DNA of 35,792 nt, from NCBI GenBank assembly GCA_017609985.1, contig JAFCCW010000001.1, forward strand, positions 80,397 to 116,188, given 5' to 3'. The stretch comes from Candidatus Iainarchaeum sp. (GTDB lineage: Archaea > Iainarchaeota > Iainarchaeia > Iainarchaeales > JAFCCW01). The translations under genes and the position numbers were made by a program. This document shows positions 11,112 to 19,305 of this stretch, in pieces (position 1 is the first letter of the stretch; each line of letters begins with the position of its first letter). The notes under the pieces were generated by a model. That model ran no database searches, was not told the DNA's origin, and worked only from the letters and a program-made list of their open reading frames with translations.

Positions 11112-11840
11112 TTATATTCCTCTAACTCCAACTTCCCCAAAAAAAGCTTCTAGCGTTTCAGCAAAAGCAGTTAGCTGAGCAGGAGTAAAAGAATTTTTAT
11201 TCTCAAGAGATCTGTCAATCATTCTTGAATCACTCTTGAATTGCTGAAGAAAAAAACGCTTTGGTTTTCCAGATAAAGAAAGAGAAGAAATCCATTTGCC
11301 AATAGAAACAAGTTTTTCCTCAGAAATAAATTCAGGGATAACAGTTGTGCGAAATTCATAGTCAGGAGCAGAATTTATTATAAGAGAAATAGACTGTTCA
11401 ATCAGTTCAGAATCAACTTCAACTCCTGCAACAGCAGAGTAATCATTTTTTGGAGCTTTAACATCCATTGCCACATAGTCAGCAAGAGATTTTGAAAAAA
11501 CTTTCTTCAAAACAGATGGATTGCCACCATTAGAATCAAGCTTGACTTCAAACCCAAGGTCTTTGACTCTTGAACAAAAATCCAAAAGCCCTGGCTGAAG
11601 AGTTGGTTCTCCGCCAGTGATTGCAACCCCCTGCAACCATTTCTTTTTAGACTCCAAAAAAGAAAAAAATTCTTCAACCGGAATCCTTGGTTCAGAAGGC
11701 TTGCCTAAAGCAAGTTCAGGATTGTAACAAAAAGGACAGCGAAAATTACAAGAATTAGTAAAAACAACACAGGAAAGTTTTCCTGGAAAATCAAGCATTG
11801 AGGTTCGGAGAACCCCGCGAATATCAAAATCAAGACTCAT
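11112..11840 (-). CDS. nrdG: Anaerobic ribonucleoside-triphosphate reductase activating protein (radical SAM)
   Basis: TNSCNFRCPFCYNPEL (CxxxCxxC), TGGEPTLQPGL; same operon as NrdD. Confidence 0.88.
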   Translation of the reverse strand: MSLDFDIRGVLRTSMLDFPGKLSCVVFTNSCNFRCPFCYNPELALGKPSEPRIPVEEFFSFLESKKKWLQGVAITGGEPTLQPGLLDFCSRVKDLGFEVKLDSNGGNPSVLKKVFSKSLADYVAMDVKAPKNDYSAVAGVEVDSELIEQSISLIINSAPDYEFRTTVIPEFISEEKLVSIGKWISSLSLSGKPKRFFLQQFKSDSRMIDRSLENKNSFTPAQLTAFAETLEAFFGEVGVRGI

Positions 11841-11848
11841 AAAAAAAC

Positions 11849-12112
11849 CTAGTGAAGAGCCTTTTCCACCTCTTCTTTTGGAGGAACTTCAGATTTCCAG
11901 GAAACAAGCTCAGTACCAGAATCATCCACTACAACAAGAGAAGGAGTGCCCATAATTCCATACATTGCTGCTTCTGCAAGACCCTCTGGATCGCCAATAT
12001 TTAGATAGCTAACTGAAACACCACTCTGTTCAAACTCTTTGCCAAGTTCCTTTGCAGATGGACATTTTCCACAGCCTTCTTTCCAAAAAACAAGCAACTT
12101 TATACACAACAC
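11849..12112 (-). CDS. Thioredoxin/glutaredoxin-like protein
   Basis: LLVFWKEGCGKCPSAKELGKEF...YGIMGTPSLVVVDDSG: CxxC and cis-Pro TP; lies between the NrdD parts and NrdG. Confidence 0.82.
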   Translation of the reverse strand: MLCIKLLVFWKEGCGKCPSAKELGKEFEQSGVSVSYLNIGDPEGLAEAAMYGIMGTPSLVVVDDSGTELVSWKSEVPPKEEVEKALH

Positions 12113-12117
12113 CTTCT

Positions 12118-12267
12118 TTAGATTTTGTAGTTTCCAGCTTGACGGTCAACAAACTCTGCTTTTTTTCCAGAATTCCAGTTTTGTATTTTGCTATAATATC
12201 CAACAACTCTTGTTATTCCTTCGACATTTTCACTTCCACAGTGAACACATTTTGCTTTTAATTCCAT
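12118..12267 (-). CDS. Separate C-terminal zinc/glycyl-radical segment of class III ribonucleotide reductase (split NrdD), 49 aa
   Basis: Hand translation: MELKAKCVHCGSENVEGITRVVGYYSKIQNWNSGKKAEFVDRQAGNYKI. Matches the NrdD C-terminal CxxC + R-V-x-G-Y + W-N-x-G-K-x-x-E pattern; ATG overlaps the NrdD stop (TGATG); GGAGGTG 5 nt upstream of the ATG. Not in the supplied ORF track. Confidence 0.85.
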   Translation of the reverse strand: MELKAKCVHCGSENVEGITRVVGYYSKIQNWNSGKKAEFVDRQAGNYKI

Positions 12268-14735
12268 CAACACACCTCCGCGACGGACTTTTTTGATTTA
12301 TTAGATTTATCTAATTTTCCAGAATTTTCTTTTTTAATTGAAACCTCTTTTTCAGTTGAACTCTCCTCTTCAGCACCCTGCACAGCAGAGCGAACAAAAC
12401 CACGAGAAATCTTGTCACAATCCTTACAAATAGTAAATTCAGGAGAAATAACTATCTGCGCACTAGGAGTATTGTCCCATGTTCTCTTAACAAGCTCAAA
12501 AATTGCTGCTGGATCCGGCTTTTGTTCTCCAAGAAAAACATGAGTTATTGCGCCAGATTCAATGAGTGTATTGAACTTCGCTTGTTTATCAATTCTTTCG
12601 ATTATATCAACCTCTGAATTAGGAGAAAAATGAACCGAGTTTGTATAATACACATTCTCAGAAGCAACATCGCCCTGAACATAGTCTTTAACAAAATCAA
12701 AACGTCTTAAATCAACTTTAGCCATTCGAGAAGACGCACTCTCAGCAGGAGTTTCCTCGAGAGTAAACTTTAGCTTGTGTTCTTTTTCAAGAGCCTTTAC
12801 CTTGAGATACATTGCAGAGATTATCTTGAGACCCTCTTTGTAAGCATCTTCAGACTCATGAAGTTCTTTGTCAGTCAAATACTTAACACACTCATTCAAT
12901 CCAATTATCCCAATAATATAAGTTGCCTTGTCAGTATCAACATATTTTCTGCCATCTTCAGCAACTTTTCCAATCTGCCAGAGAGGCATGTGAGGAGCAG
13001 ACATAAGCTGGTCAATAAATTTCTTCTTTTGGAGATGTGCCTTTACAGCTAAATCCATCATGGCTTCAACAGTTTTAATTGTTTTACCAGTGTTCTTGGA
13101 TGACTTGAAAGCAGCCTGAGGCAAATTAATGCTTACATTCTGAAAACCACAAAAGCGCATGCTCTCAGGATGCAACACCATATAATTGTCAGTAATTTCA
13201 GTGCGAAGTCTGCAACACATTGAAAGATTTACCTCATCGCGATCAAAAATAAAATAAGGAGAACCATTCTCAGAAGCAATTACACAAGCTTCGCTCAAAA
13301 GCTCGCGCTGTTTTGGATCATCAAAAGAATCCTGATTAACATGAAGATCAAATTTTGGAAATGGAAAAGGAAGATTGTTTCTGTCACCCTCTCTCCAAAC
13401 CTCCATCAAAGCCCTGCAAAATTGCTGAGCCTCTGCTTCAAAATCAAGATAAGTTAAAATCTTTCCATCAGCAGACTGCTCAAGCTCGCCGTTCTTGTTT
13501 CTGGGAACCTCATCAAGTTTCTCAATCGATCCGTCCTTCTTTTCAAGCATATATTTTCCGCCAGGACCGATGGCAGGAACATTCTTGAGATAAGAAGGGA
13601 TTCCGGTGTGAATATTAAAATCAATAAAGAGTGTCTGGCCACCTCTAGAAAATGCATTCTGAGAACAAGAAAAAATCAAATACTGTGCTTCCTGCTTCAT
13701 TCGCTCAAAAGACATTCCGCGCATTAGCGGCGCATAAAAAAGATTAACATAACTTATTCCAAGAGCCCCGGCATAGTAAGCCTGCATGGAAGCAAGAAAA
13801 GTGTTAAGATGGCCAGTGAGAGTCTGAGCATGCTTTGCGGGCGCAGAAACAGTTGAAAGATTCTCAAGCTTGAGACCATATTTTTTGATATACTCCAAAG
13901 AATGCGCAGAACAATAAGTTCTTATTGGATAACCCAAGTCATGAAGGTGAATTGCACCCTCAAGATGAGCCTTAGAAATATCTTTAGAAAAAAGATTATT
14001 CAACGCAAACTGTTTCAGGATATTTTCCGCAATCGAAAGATTAACTGCTTCAGGATTGTTAGCAGCAACATTTGAATTCTCATTACTCATAGAACTTATG
14101 AGTTGTTTCAAATCATACACCGGCATTCCAATAAGAGTCTGCTTCTCAAGTTTTGACTGATAACCACGATCAAATAATTCAGTGTCAACCAAAGCACGAA
14201 TAAGAGAAGTTGAAATCTTCTTCAAACCAGATTTAAAAATTCGCTCCTCAACAGCATCAGCTATTTCCTCTGCCTCAGCAAGAGGAATGCTTGCCTCTTT
14301 ATGGAGCGCAGAAGCAATCTTGGATTTACTCCACTCAAATAATTCATCCTTGGAAGAGGGCTCCACCAACAAAAGCAAGTCAGTAGAAGAAGCCTTGCCC
14401 CTTACCTTTTTCCTTACTTGAATCTTAGAACGCATTCTCTTGCGCTCGTCCCTGTAAAGAATAAATGCTTTTGCAGTCTTTGCCCTGCCATCTTCAATAA
14501 GAATTTTTTCAACAGAATCCTGAACCTCCTCTATGGTTGGGCTCTTGCCGCCAAAACTCCGCCTTAAATCATTAGTAACTTTTCTGGCAATATTTCTTGC
14601 AGAACCATAATCCTTGCCACCGACAGACTTAGCAGCCTTAAAAATTGCATTTGCAATTTTCTCCTCATTAAAAGGAACAAACCGCCCGTCTCTTTTTTGA
14701 ACATTAGTGAAAAATTCTTCAACCATAAAACACAC
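12267..14735 (-). CDS. nrdD: Anaerobic ribonucleoside-triphosphate reductase large polypeptide, lacking its own glycyl-radical motif
   Basis: N-terminal ATP-cone (VQKRDGRFVPFNEEKIANAIFKAA), second ATP-cone-like segment, class III RNR core (CSAHSLEYIKKYGL, TLTGHLNTFLASMQAYYAGALG, FTICKDC); ends with a K/S/E-rich tail instead of a glycyl-radical segment. Confidence 0.93.
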   Translation of the reverse strand: MCFMVEEFFTNVQKRDGRFVPFNEEKIANAIFKAAKSVGGKDYGSARNIARKVTNDLRRSFGGKSPTIEEVQDSVEKILIEDGRAKTAKAFILYRDERKRMRSKIQVRKKVRGKASSTDLLLLVEPSSKDELFEWSKSKIASALHKEASIPLAEAEEIADAVEERIFKSGLKKISTSLIRALVDTELFDRGYQSKLEKQTLIGMPVYDLKQLISSMSNENSNVAANNPEAVNLSIAENILKQFALNNLFSKDISKAHLEGAIHLHDLGYPIRTYCSAHSLEYIKKYGLKLENLSTVSAPAKHAQTLTGHLNTFLASMQAYYAGALGISYVNLFYAPLMRGMSFERMKQEAQYLIFSCSQNAFSRGGQTLFIDFNIHTGIPSYLKNVPAIGPGGKYMLEKKDGSIEKLDEVPRNKNGELEQSADGKILTYLDFEAEAQQFCRALMEVWREGDRNNLPFPFPKFDLHVNQDSFDDPKQRELLSEACVIASENGSPYFIFDRDEVNLSMCCRLRTEITDNYMVLHPESMRFCGFQNVSINLPQAAFKSSKNTGKTIKTVEAMMDLAVKAHLQKKKFIDQLMSAPHMPLWQIGKVAEDGRKYVDTDKATYIIGIIGLNECVKYLTDKELHESEDAYKEGLKIISAMYLKVKALEKEHKLKFTLEETPAESASSRMAKVDLRRFDFVKDYVQGDVASENVYYTNSVHFSPNSEVDIIERIDKQAKFNTLIESGAITHVFLGEQKPDPAAIFELVKRTWDNTPSAQIVISPEFTICKDCDKISRGFVRSAVQGAEEESSTEKEVSIKKENSGKLDKSNKSKKSVAEVC

Positions 14736-16002: not shown

Positions 16003-16314
16003 GTGGATGAAGAACGAATTCCAGTCAAAGAACTAATTGAACAGATGAGACGAGAGCTAATGCAAGATCAAGGAAGCAAAGCAAAGCCAAAAACAACAAA
16101 ACCAAAGAAAAGTGTGAAAAAGAAGAGAAAATCAAAAACAACAAAAAAAAGAAGCCCAGCAAAAAAGAAAAAAACCACTAAAAATAAACCAGTAGCAAGA
16201 AAAAAAGCAACAAAGAAAAAGAAAACAGCGAAGAAAAAAACAGCAACAAAGAAAAAAACAACCACTAAAAGAAAAACAAGATGCAGAGCCAAACCCAGAA
16301 AAAAGAGAAAATGA
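16003..16314 (+). CDS. Extremely Lys-rich basic protein (histone H1-like / nucleoid or RNA-binding candidate)
   Basis: Short mixed N-terminus (MDEERIPVKELIEQMRRELMQDQ) then K/T/A/P repeats; GTG start with AAAGGTG upstream. Confidence 0.7.
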   Translation: MDEERIPVKELIEQMRRELMQDQGSKAKPKTTKPKKSVKKKRKSKTTKKRSPAKKKKTTKNKPVARKKATKKKKTAKKKTATKKKTTTKRKTRCRAKPRKKRK

Positions 16315-17439: not shown

Positions 17440-19305
17440 ATGAAGAAAAAAAAAACAAACCTGAAAGAACTCATTAACGAAGTAAAGAGCAAAAATTCAG
17501 ATGCAAACATCGCCCTTATCAAAAAAGCATTTGAAAAAGCCACTGCCAAAAACACTAGCAAAATAAGAAATATGGAAGAACTCAAAACACATCTTTTGAA
17601 CAGCGCAATCACTATAGCAAAATTAAACCTGGGGGAAGAAGCAGTAAACGCAACACTGTTGCATGAAACAGGAAACACGCAAGAAGAAATTGAAAAAATC
17701 AAACACGATTTTGGAAAAGCCACAGCACAACTTGTTGAAGAGATAACAAAGATAACAGAAATTGAAGAAAACAACAGGGGAAAAATTTCAAATGAAGTTC
17801 TGAGCAGGGTAATACTTTCAACAGGCAAAGACATCAGATCAGTATTTATAAAACTTGCAACAACTCAGCAAAATATTGAAGATATTGACCTCTGGAAAGA
17901 AAAAGGAGAAAAAATGGCAGAAATCACTGCCCAGGCGTATGTTCCGATTTGTCACAAACTTGGATTAAAAGAAATGGAGTGGAACATGCGAGACCTTGCA
18001 TTCAAAAAGCTTGAGCCGGAAGAATACGCAAAAATAAAAAAAAACATAGGTCAAAAAAGAGAAAAAAGAGAAAGAGAAGTTAATGAACTTGTTGAAGAAC
18101 TAACAAACGAACTTCAAAAACAAAAAATGAAAGTATATGTGTATGGGCGACCAAAAAGTTTTTACAGCATCTACAAAAAACTAAAAACCGGAAAACAAAT
18201 TGAAGAAATTCATGATTTGCTAGCAGCAAGAATAATTTGCGACTCAATCAAAGAATGTTACGAAGCACTCTCCGTAGTGCATTCCTTATTCAAGCCTGTT
18301 TCAAAAGACTTCAAGGATTATATTGCAAGCCCAAAGAAAAACAATTACAAAAGCATTCACACCGCAATGGAATGGAGAAAAAAAATTGTAGAAATACAAA
18401 TAAGAACCTGGGAAATGCACGCAGAAGCAGAACTAGGAATCGCAGCGCACTGGAAATACAAGGAATTTCAAAAAGACCAGTATTTTGATCAAAAACTTGG
18501 CTGGGCAAGACAGTTAGCAGACTGGCAACAAAAAGAAAAAAATGCAATTGATGTAATGAAAAGTTTAAAGTTAGATATTGGAGAAAACAAGATATTTGTT
18601 CTGACCCCACAAAAAAAAGTTGTTGTTCTTCCGGAAGGTTCAACCCCAATAGACTTTGCATTCGCAATCCATTCAGAAATAGGTTACAAATGCAAATTAG
18701 CAAAAGTTAACGGAAAAATAGTGCCATTAAACCAGATTCTGGAAAATGCAGACACAATAGAAATAATTACATCCCCCAAAGACCAGGCAAAAAGCCAATG
18801 GATAAGTTTTGTGAGGCTAGACAAAGCAATAACAAAACTCAAACAAAAACTTGGCATAAAAGAAAAACAAGAAAAGAAAAAACACAAAATCGTTGGGAAA
18901 AAAAGCAGAAAAAACATTAGAATTGCAAACTGCTGCAAACCAATTCCCGGAGACCCAATACAAGGATACAAAACAACAAAAAGAAAAATAAGCGTGCACA
19001 AAAAAGAATGCAAAAACCTGAGCACGATTGAAACAGGAAAATTAGTAGAAATAAGCTGGGAAGGCCTTGGAGGCGAATTCCAAGCAGAGATATATATCCG
19101 CGCAGAAGACAGACCAGAAATTCTCAGAAATCTTTTAGATGAAACAGCAAAAGAAAAAATAAAAATATACTCAACCAGCGCAAAAGCCAAAGCAAACGCG
19201 ATTGAATGCATATTCAAGATAGGGATAAAAAACGCAAACCAGCTTGAAAAACTAATTAACAGACTTGAAAAGGTACCTGGCACCCACAGCGTGAAAAGAA
19301 GATAA
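17440..19305 (+). CDS. RelA/SpoT homolog (long RSH: degenerate HD, synthetase, TGS, Cys motif, ACT)
   Basis: VYGRPKSFYSIYKKLKTG, IHDLLAARIICDS, DYIASPKKNNYKSIHTAM, VEIQIRTWEMHAEAELGIAAHWKYK; TGS LPEGSTPIDFAFAIHSEIGYKC; NCCKPIPGDPIQGY; C-terminal ACT-like segment. Confidence 0.94.
   Translation: MKKKKTNLKELINEVKSKNSDANIALIKKAFEKATAKNTSKIRNMEELKTHLLNSAITIAKLNLGEEAVNATLLHETGNTQEEIEKIKHDFGKATAQLVEEITKITEIEENNRGKISNEVLSRVILSTGKDIRSVFIKLATTQQNIEDIDLWKEKGEKMAEITAQAYVPICHKLGLKEMEWNMRDLAFKKLEPEEYAKIKKNIGQKREKREREVNELVEELTNELQKQKMKVYVYGRPKSFYSIYKKLKTGKQIEEIHDLLAARIICDSIKECYEALSVVHSLFKPVSKDFKDYIASPKKNNYKSIHTAMEWRKKIVEIQIRTWEMHAEAELGIAAHWKYKEFQKDQYFDQKLGWARQLADWQQKEKNAIDVMKSLKLDIGENKIFVLTPQKKVVVLPEGSTPIDFAFAIHSEIGYKCKLAKVNGKIVPLNQILENADTIEIITSPKDQAKSQWISFVRLDKAITKLKQKLGIKEKQEKKKHKIVGKKSRKNIRIANCCKPIPGDPIQGYKTTKRKISVHKKECKNLSTIETGKLVEISWEGLGGEFQAEIYIRAEDRPEILRNLLDETAKEKIKIYSTSAKAKANAIECIFKIGIKNANQLEKLINRLEKVPGTHSVKRR

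Follow-up and report, generated by a model that had tools for sequence, protein, structure and literature searches.

Class III ribonucleotide reductases (RNRs) have been described as single chains that bear their own radical. The NrdD proteins of T. maritima (PDB 4coi/4u3e), Prevotella copri (8p23), S. thermophilus (9d3x), and phage T4 (1h78) combine ATP cones, a catalytic barrel, a zinc site, and a radical loop of the RVxGY type and have an adjacent NrdG. Here, we analyzed a window of 35,792 nucleotides (nt) from Candidatus Iainarchaeum sp. (contig JAFCCW010000001.1, positions 80,397 to 116,188), in which an nrdD locus encodes the same components, but places the radical loop, together with one half of the zinc site, on a separate chain of 49 amino acids (aa).

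Several described systems resemble this arrangement in part. GrcA/YfiD and the phage T4 protein Y06I are, like the window peptide, short proteins duplicating the C-terminal, radical-bearing part of such an enzyme of the glycyl radical class (PMC8683613); however, the window peptide is of the NrdD rather than the pyruvate formate-lyase (PFL) type and is the sole radical segment, not a replacement. Such spare-part proteins have been validated only for PFL, and it has been suggested that they are possible for other glycyl radical enzymes (PMC8683613). The C-terminal part of the Pseudomonas aeruginosa class II RNR NrdJa/NrdJb is likewise a separate, essential chain encoded in the same operon, but NrdJb is 229 aa long and serves thiol exchange, not radical storage (PMC4520616). 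Phage nrdD genes also occur in multiple pieces, interrupted by introns, inteins, and homing endonucleases; there, however, the pieces arise in individual phages through mobile elements or fragmentation of unexplained cause, with no conserved radical subunit that has its own ribosome-binding site (PMC3653736). Nanoarchaeum, one of the DPANN-type archaea, makes one-chain proteins from two genes, but RNR is not in its split-gene table and most halves are distant by locus-tag number (PMC3655853). In open-licence PMC full text, we found no report of a class III RNR whose radical resides on a chain of its own.

The split nrdD locus

We consider it highly likely that the locus encodes a two-chain class III RNR, in which NrdG would activate a small subunit that bears the glycyl radical and is held in place by a zinc site common to both chains. 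The nrdD body (12267 to 14735, minus strand) comprises the ATP cones and catalytic barrel and matches the ATP-cone family PF03477 and TIGR02487 (354 bits against a cut-off of 326). Its frame opens at a GTG at 14735, with an ATG also at 14726, and it holds the active-site cysteine motifs YCSAHS and MCCRL, whose cysteine columns are invariant among relatives. The body ends in ...SPEFTICKDCDKISRGFVRSAVQGAEEESSTEKEVSIKKENSGKLDKSNKSKKSVAEVC-TGA, with the stop codon at 12269 to 12267. This end lies past CKDC, the first CxxC in the zinc site, and no radical glycine is present in the body. The small open reading frame (ORF; 12118 to 12267, minus strand) starts at an ATG at 12267, overlaps the nrdD stop by 1 nt (TGATG), and has its own stop at 12118. 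Its translation, MELKAKCVHCGSENVEGITRVVGYYSKIQNWNSGKKAEFVDRQAGNYKI, supplies CVHC as the second CxxC and has RVVGYY as its radical motif. A Shine-Dalgarno sequence, GGAGGTG (12273 to 12279, minus strand), lies 5 nt upstream of this ATG, within the nrdD reading frame.

The two ORFs tile the Pfam NRDD model (PF13597) without a gap, the large one covering positions 1 to 517 (E = 3.7e-114) and the 49-aa one positions 521 to 560 (E = 2.9e-12). The split that a sequence-only reading of the window had described is confirmed, in both its sequence and its coordinates. The peptide also aligns with the C-terminus of the 8p23 NrdD, including the region of the radical glycine. An RVxGY-type loop and a cysteine zinc site are both present, distributed over two chains; because the radical glycine is not on the barrel chain, as it is in an ordinary class III RNR, the enzyme is a variant rather than an ordinary member of NrdD. 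NRDD was the sole Pfam match of the peptide (E up to 1), with no homology to the PFL radical domain, and the class II catalytic domain (PF02867) that would mark an NrdJab-type enzyme was not found.

Two further genes follow on the minus strand. An 87-aa thioredoxin/NrdH-like redoxin with a CGKC motif (11849 to 12112; PF13192 above its cut-off) is the probable reductant of the RNR. It is followed by nrdG, encoding a radical S-adenosylmethionine activase of the NrdG2 type (11112 to 11840; TIGR02495, 206 bits against a cut-off of 131). The host metagenome-assembled genome (MAG) is 1.16 Mb and 87% complete, and within it we found no further copy of the nrdD body or the radical segment and no class I or class II RNR, in keeping with the earlier suggestion that this would be the only copy. 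A match in G000 at C25:16601 is similar only in the ATP-cone region. The window itself is of archaeal character, carrying genes for RadA, geranylgeranylglyceryl phosphate synthase, and the archaeal signal recognition particle (SRP) RNA.

Recurrence and origin of the split

The closest NrdD relatives (53 to 59% identity) are mostly continuous and come from contigs of Ratteibacteria, Omnitrophota, and Atribacterota. Among them, contig WANL01000028 of the Aenigmatarchaeota (L004) encodes an NrdD that is 59% identical to that of the window and is split at the equivalent place. Its body ends in ...FTVCDDCGRVSRGYARKVEAR-stop, and the small ORF has a new ATG with GAGGTGAT; the ATG lies behind GAGGTGATC, with MEPKCPCCGSRNVFGLSRVVGYF... 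The order nrdD, small ORF, redoxin, nrdG is common to both loci, and the junction DNA, the spacing, and the relative frame all differ. The charged tail of the large chain, which had been taken as a sign of an evolved split, is not conserved: the L004 body terminates 18 residues from the first zinc cysteine.

A profile of the radical segment, searched through 75 genomes of the window's order, found the segment in 48, as its own short frame in 41 (with the body past the contig end in 2) and within a continuous nrdD in 7. In the phylum of L004, a truncated body is followed by a short frame in 15 genomes, among them that of L004. The two-chain arrangement evidently also occurs in bacteria, since 18 of the 20 short-frame loci fetched from the phylum of the Omnitrophota genome G089 are splits. 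In total, approximately 74 genomes from the window's order and these two further phyla are split at an equivalent place; on one 788-position model, the bodies end at about 739 to 766 and the small chains begin at about 733 to 751. Furthermore, nrdG lies directly downstream in 67 of 80 short-frame cases, the exceptions being mostly spare copies, contig ends, and wrong frames. (Wrong-frame rows were left out of the counts: extra junction rows of G066, G287, and G295 and one G087 row of the Shine-Dalgarno table.) A split nrdD is thus recurrent in archaea and bacteria, beyond a single genome.

Shine-Dalgarno sites, defined as a match of at least 5 nt to GGAGGTGATC at a spacing of 2 to 11 nt, precede 52 of 55 small ORFs, compared to 111 of 1805 internal ATGs (6%). 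The first figure, from 56 rows less the one in the wrong frame, is slightly inflated by taking the best of several possible starts. This supports the dedicated ribosome-binding site proposed for the window. In 15 close pairs pooled, the proportion of synonymous differences (pS) was 0.54 and that of nonsynonymous differences (pN) 0.044, a ratio of 0.08, by which the small ORFs are evidently under selection. These results bear on whether the gene is decaying or simply carries an indel from sequencing or assembly, a concern raised by the window's being from a single MAG contig. We reject this explanation as extremely improbable: L004, from an independent genome and with a 59% identical protein, shows the same split with a different junction, dozens of further genomes are split, the Shine-Dalgarno sites are strong, pN/pS is 0.08, and the split nrdD is the only RNR gene found in the genome. 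The earlier reading of an evolved split is upheld by conservation in L004, with the same operon, and in the other genomes.

Another route to a single chain would be programmed -1 ribosomal frameshifting at A_AAA_AAG (12288 to 12294, minus strand), yielding one full-length NrdD chain whose zinc site would contain a long linker. This heptamer, which the sequence-only reading had overlooked, lies about 18 nt upstream of the stop and is the only in-frame -1 slippery heptamer in nrdD, with the -1 frame running open from there into the small ORF; its presence is probably due to chance in an A-rich tail. However, the site is absent from L004, where the small ORF is in another relative frame. Among the splits generally, small ORFs occur in all three relative frames, the gaps range from a 43-nt overlap to a spacer of well over 100 nt, and the slippery site is present in only a few of the -1 cases. 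Because relative frames and gaps vary, recoding is evidently not the general mechanism among splits, which show neither a conserved slippery site nor a fixed -1 relation. Frameshifting also has no need of a normally spaced Shine-Dalgarno sequence before an ATG, and we regard it as improbable for the window gene. The same range of gaps among other splits qualifies the proposal that the two ORFs are translationally coupled, although it fits the window.

We also considered joining of the two chains after translation, by a split intein or a similar ligation. In several relatives, NrdD frames of 1000 to 1700 aa point to inteins, but both window ORFs lack an intein-like extra domain, being NrdD throughout except for a short tail, and no intein halves were found at the junction; we assign ligation a next to negligible probability. 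Frames of 940 to 1680 aa with matches in pieces, probably reflecting inteins, were seen beside the split in G032, G030, G219, G170, G100, G073, and others.

A tree of the barrel (46 rows, with Omnitrophota splits left out) places the window and L004 as sisters, adjoining continuous bacterial NrdDs, and nests G100 among continuous NrdDs of the phylum of L004. The split and continuous states require 11 changes, and well-supported branches force 7 of these; on these grounds we rejected one ancient split. Monophyly of all splits was rejected (p-AU 5e-29), as was a clade uniting the three splits that fall elsewhere than in the main one (G000, G087, and G100; p-AU 1e-5). The splits thus arose repeatedly. 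Re-fusion within parts of the main clade is possible, since the direction of each change was not inferred.

Two observations concern the NrdD frames of relatives. An NrdR-like zinc ribbon (KCPYCLSENLKV...RRRRECLSCGKRFTTYE) precedes the ATP cone in L004 (2106-4604), L210 (G218), and L206 (G221), as though an NrdR repressor were fused to the enzyme. Two genomes, G056 (L054) and G089 (L119), have a second, divergent continuous NrdD, of the RVVGYFTRVNNWNPGK type, beside another NrdD.

A proposed two-chain enzyme

An alignment of 22 NrdDs (21 continuous and one split) showed that three cysteines of the zinc site, C637, C650, and C673 (G017 numbering), are invariant, as are the cysteines of the body and the radical glycine. 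In the window, the zinc cysteines are divided two and two, with CKDC on the body and CVHC on the small chain. The zinc site is evidently divided between chains in the splits, as had been proposed for the window, because the body holds at least two cysteines of the region and the small chain nearly always at least one. In the P. copri NrdD, the radical domain spans residues 676 to 739, with Gly711 and a structural zinc, and becomes disordered upon dATP binding (PMC11226230); the alignment places the window peptide at the end of this domain. A radical domain with such in-and-out movement would be a plausible candidate for becoming a separate chain.

For a structural view, we modeled G017, a split relative with a gap of 0 and both ORFs in the same frame, read through its stop, using 22 sequences. 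The model has a mean predicted local distance difference test (pLDDT) score of 85, with 66 in the linker and about 81 to 91 in the radical segment. The predicted fold is that of a class III RNR, the class to which its best PDB matches belong.

We propose that the large chain, which ends within the zinc site, provides the ATP cones, the catalytic cysteines, and the substrate site, and that ribosomes completing nrdD would translate the 49-residue chain from its own Shine-Dalgarno sequence. The other zinc half-site and the radical-bearing glycine would come from the small chain. Zinc bound by cysteines of both chains would hold the small chain in place, with its glycine loop extending into the barrel; we infer that the chains assemble, share the metal, and place the radical on the small subunit. 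The neighboring NrdG would install the radical, and the neighboring redoxin would probably re-reduce the active site. Certain points weigh against this proposal: at 87% completeness, another RNR could be missing from the assembly; the one slippery heptamer keeps frameshifting possible for the window gene alone; and the G017 model, which joins the chains, cannot show that separate chains bind.

A likely but unproven benefit of the split lies in repair. Because oxygen cleaves the chain at a glycyl radical and thereby destroys it, damage would cost only a cheap 50-residue part. As a natural system, the two-chain form would allow the radical part to be labeled, swapped, titrated, and activated apart from the body, making the access of NrdG to the glycine, the docking of the radical domain, and the repair of oxygen-cut NrdD directly testable.

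Free-standing and viral radical peptides

Some relatives carry a second, free-standing copy of the peptide among oxygen-defense genes. G016 (L079) encodes a continuous NrdD and, between rubrerythrin and peroxiredoxin genes, a separate 49-aa peptide, which could thus replace a segment that the enzyme also has. In G028 (L080), where NrdD is split, the second peptide lies between rubrerythrin and CDGSH genes. In the Omnitrophota genome G400 (L358), the second peptide is near genes for a hybrid-cluster (prismane) protein, ferritin, and an ODP-family metallo-beta-lactamase-fold protein that is probably a flavodiiron protein, and in G431 (L362), it is near a gene resembling HtpG by eye. The likeness to GrcA/YfiD that the sequence-only reading had drawn gains support from these copies.

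In one viral scan, 336 contigs matched. Among 104 matching viral contigs, NrdD is continuous in 32 and split in 2, whereas 67 carry a short frame and lack an NrdD body within about 3 kb. When the window peptide was searched against phage and plasmid databases, the matches were mostly ordinary NrdD C-termini. The free-standing viral peptides lie in frames of about 41 to 168 aa, some with an extra N-terminal domain (contigs include L130, L132-L135, L137-L144, L243, L249-L251, and L254-L258). It is suggestive, by analogy with YfiD and PFL, that the spare and viral peptides may be exchangeable parts that replace damaged radical segments. The recurrent two-chain form also bears, at the sequence level, on the suggestion of spare parts beyond PFL (PMC8683613).

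These second copies, together with the many on viral contigs, could also mean that the small ORF of a split is merely a repair part like GrcA/YfiD, with the usual radical of the enzyme coming from elsewhere. We think this very improbable for the window, where the body lacks a radical glycine and the genome has neither a second copy of the peptide nor a second nrdD, and the small ORF lies between the body and nrdG in most splits. In annotation pipelines, a gene of 45 to 60 aa may be dropped or labeled a fragment, such that essential RNRs look broken. Short radical-peptide genes may already sit in databases under the NrdD name, e.g., AJP62049.

That entry, from ANMV-1 virus (L374), is 144 aa long and annotated as an anaerobic ribonucleoside triphosphate reductase, with room for a radical segment and not for a catalytic barrel. 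Contig L127 (G088, Ratteibacteria) has a 151-aa frame that joins a cysteine-containing N-terminal part to an NrdD radical motif, apart from a continuous nrdD. Elsewhere in the window, a 103-aa ORF directly after the SRP RNA (16003 to 16314, plus strand) is highly rich in lysine and threonine and is a possible nucleic-acid-binding protein, and a 621-aa protein of the RelA/SpoT family, unusual in archaea, is encoded at 17440 to 19305 (plus strand; TIGR00691 above its cut-off).
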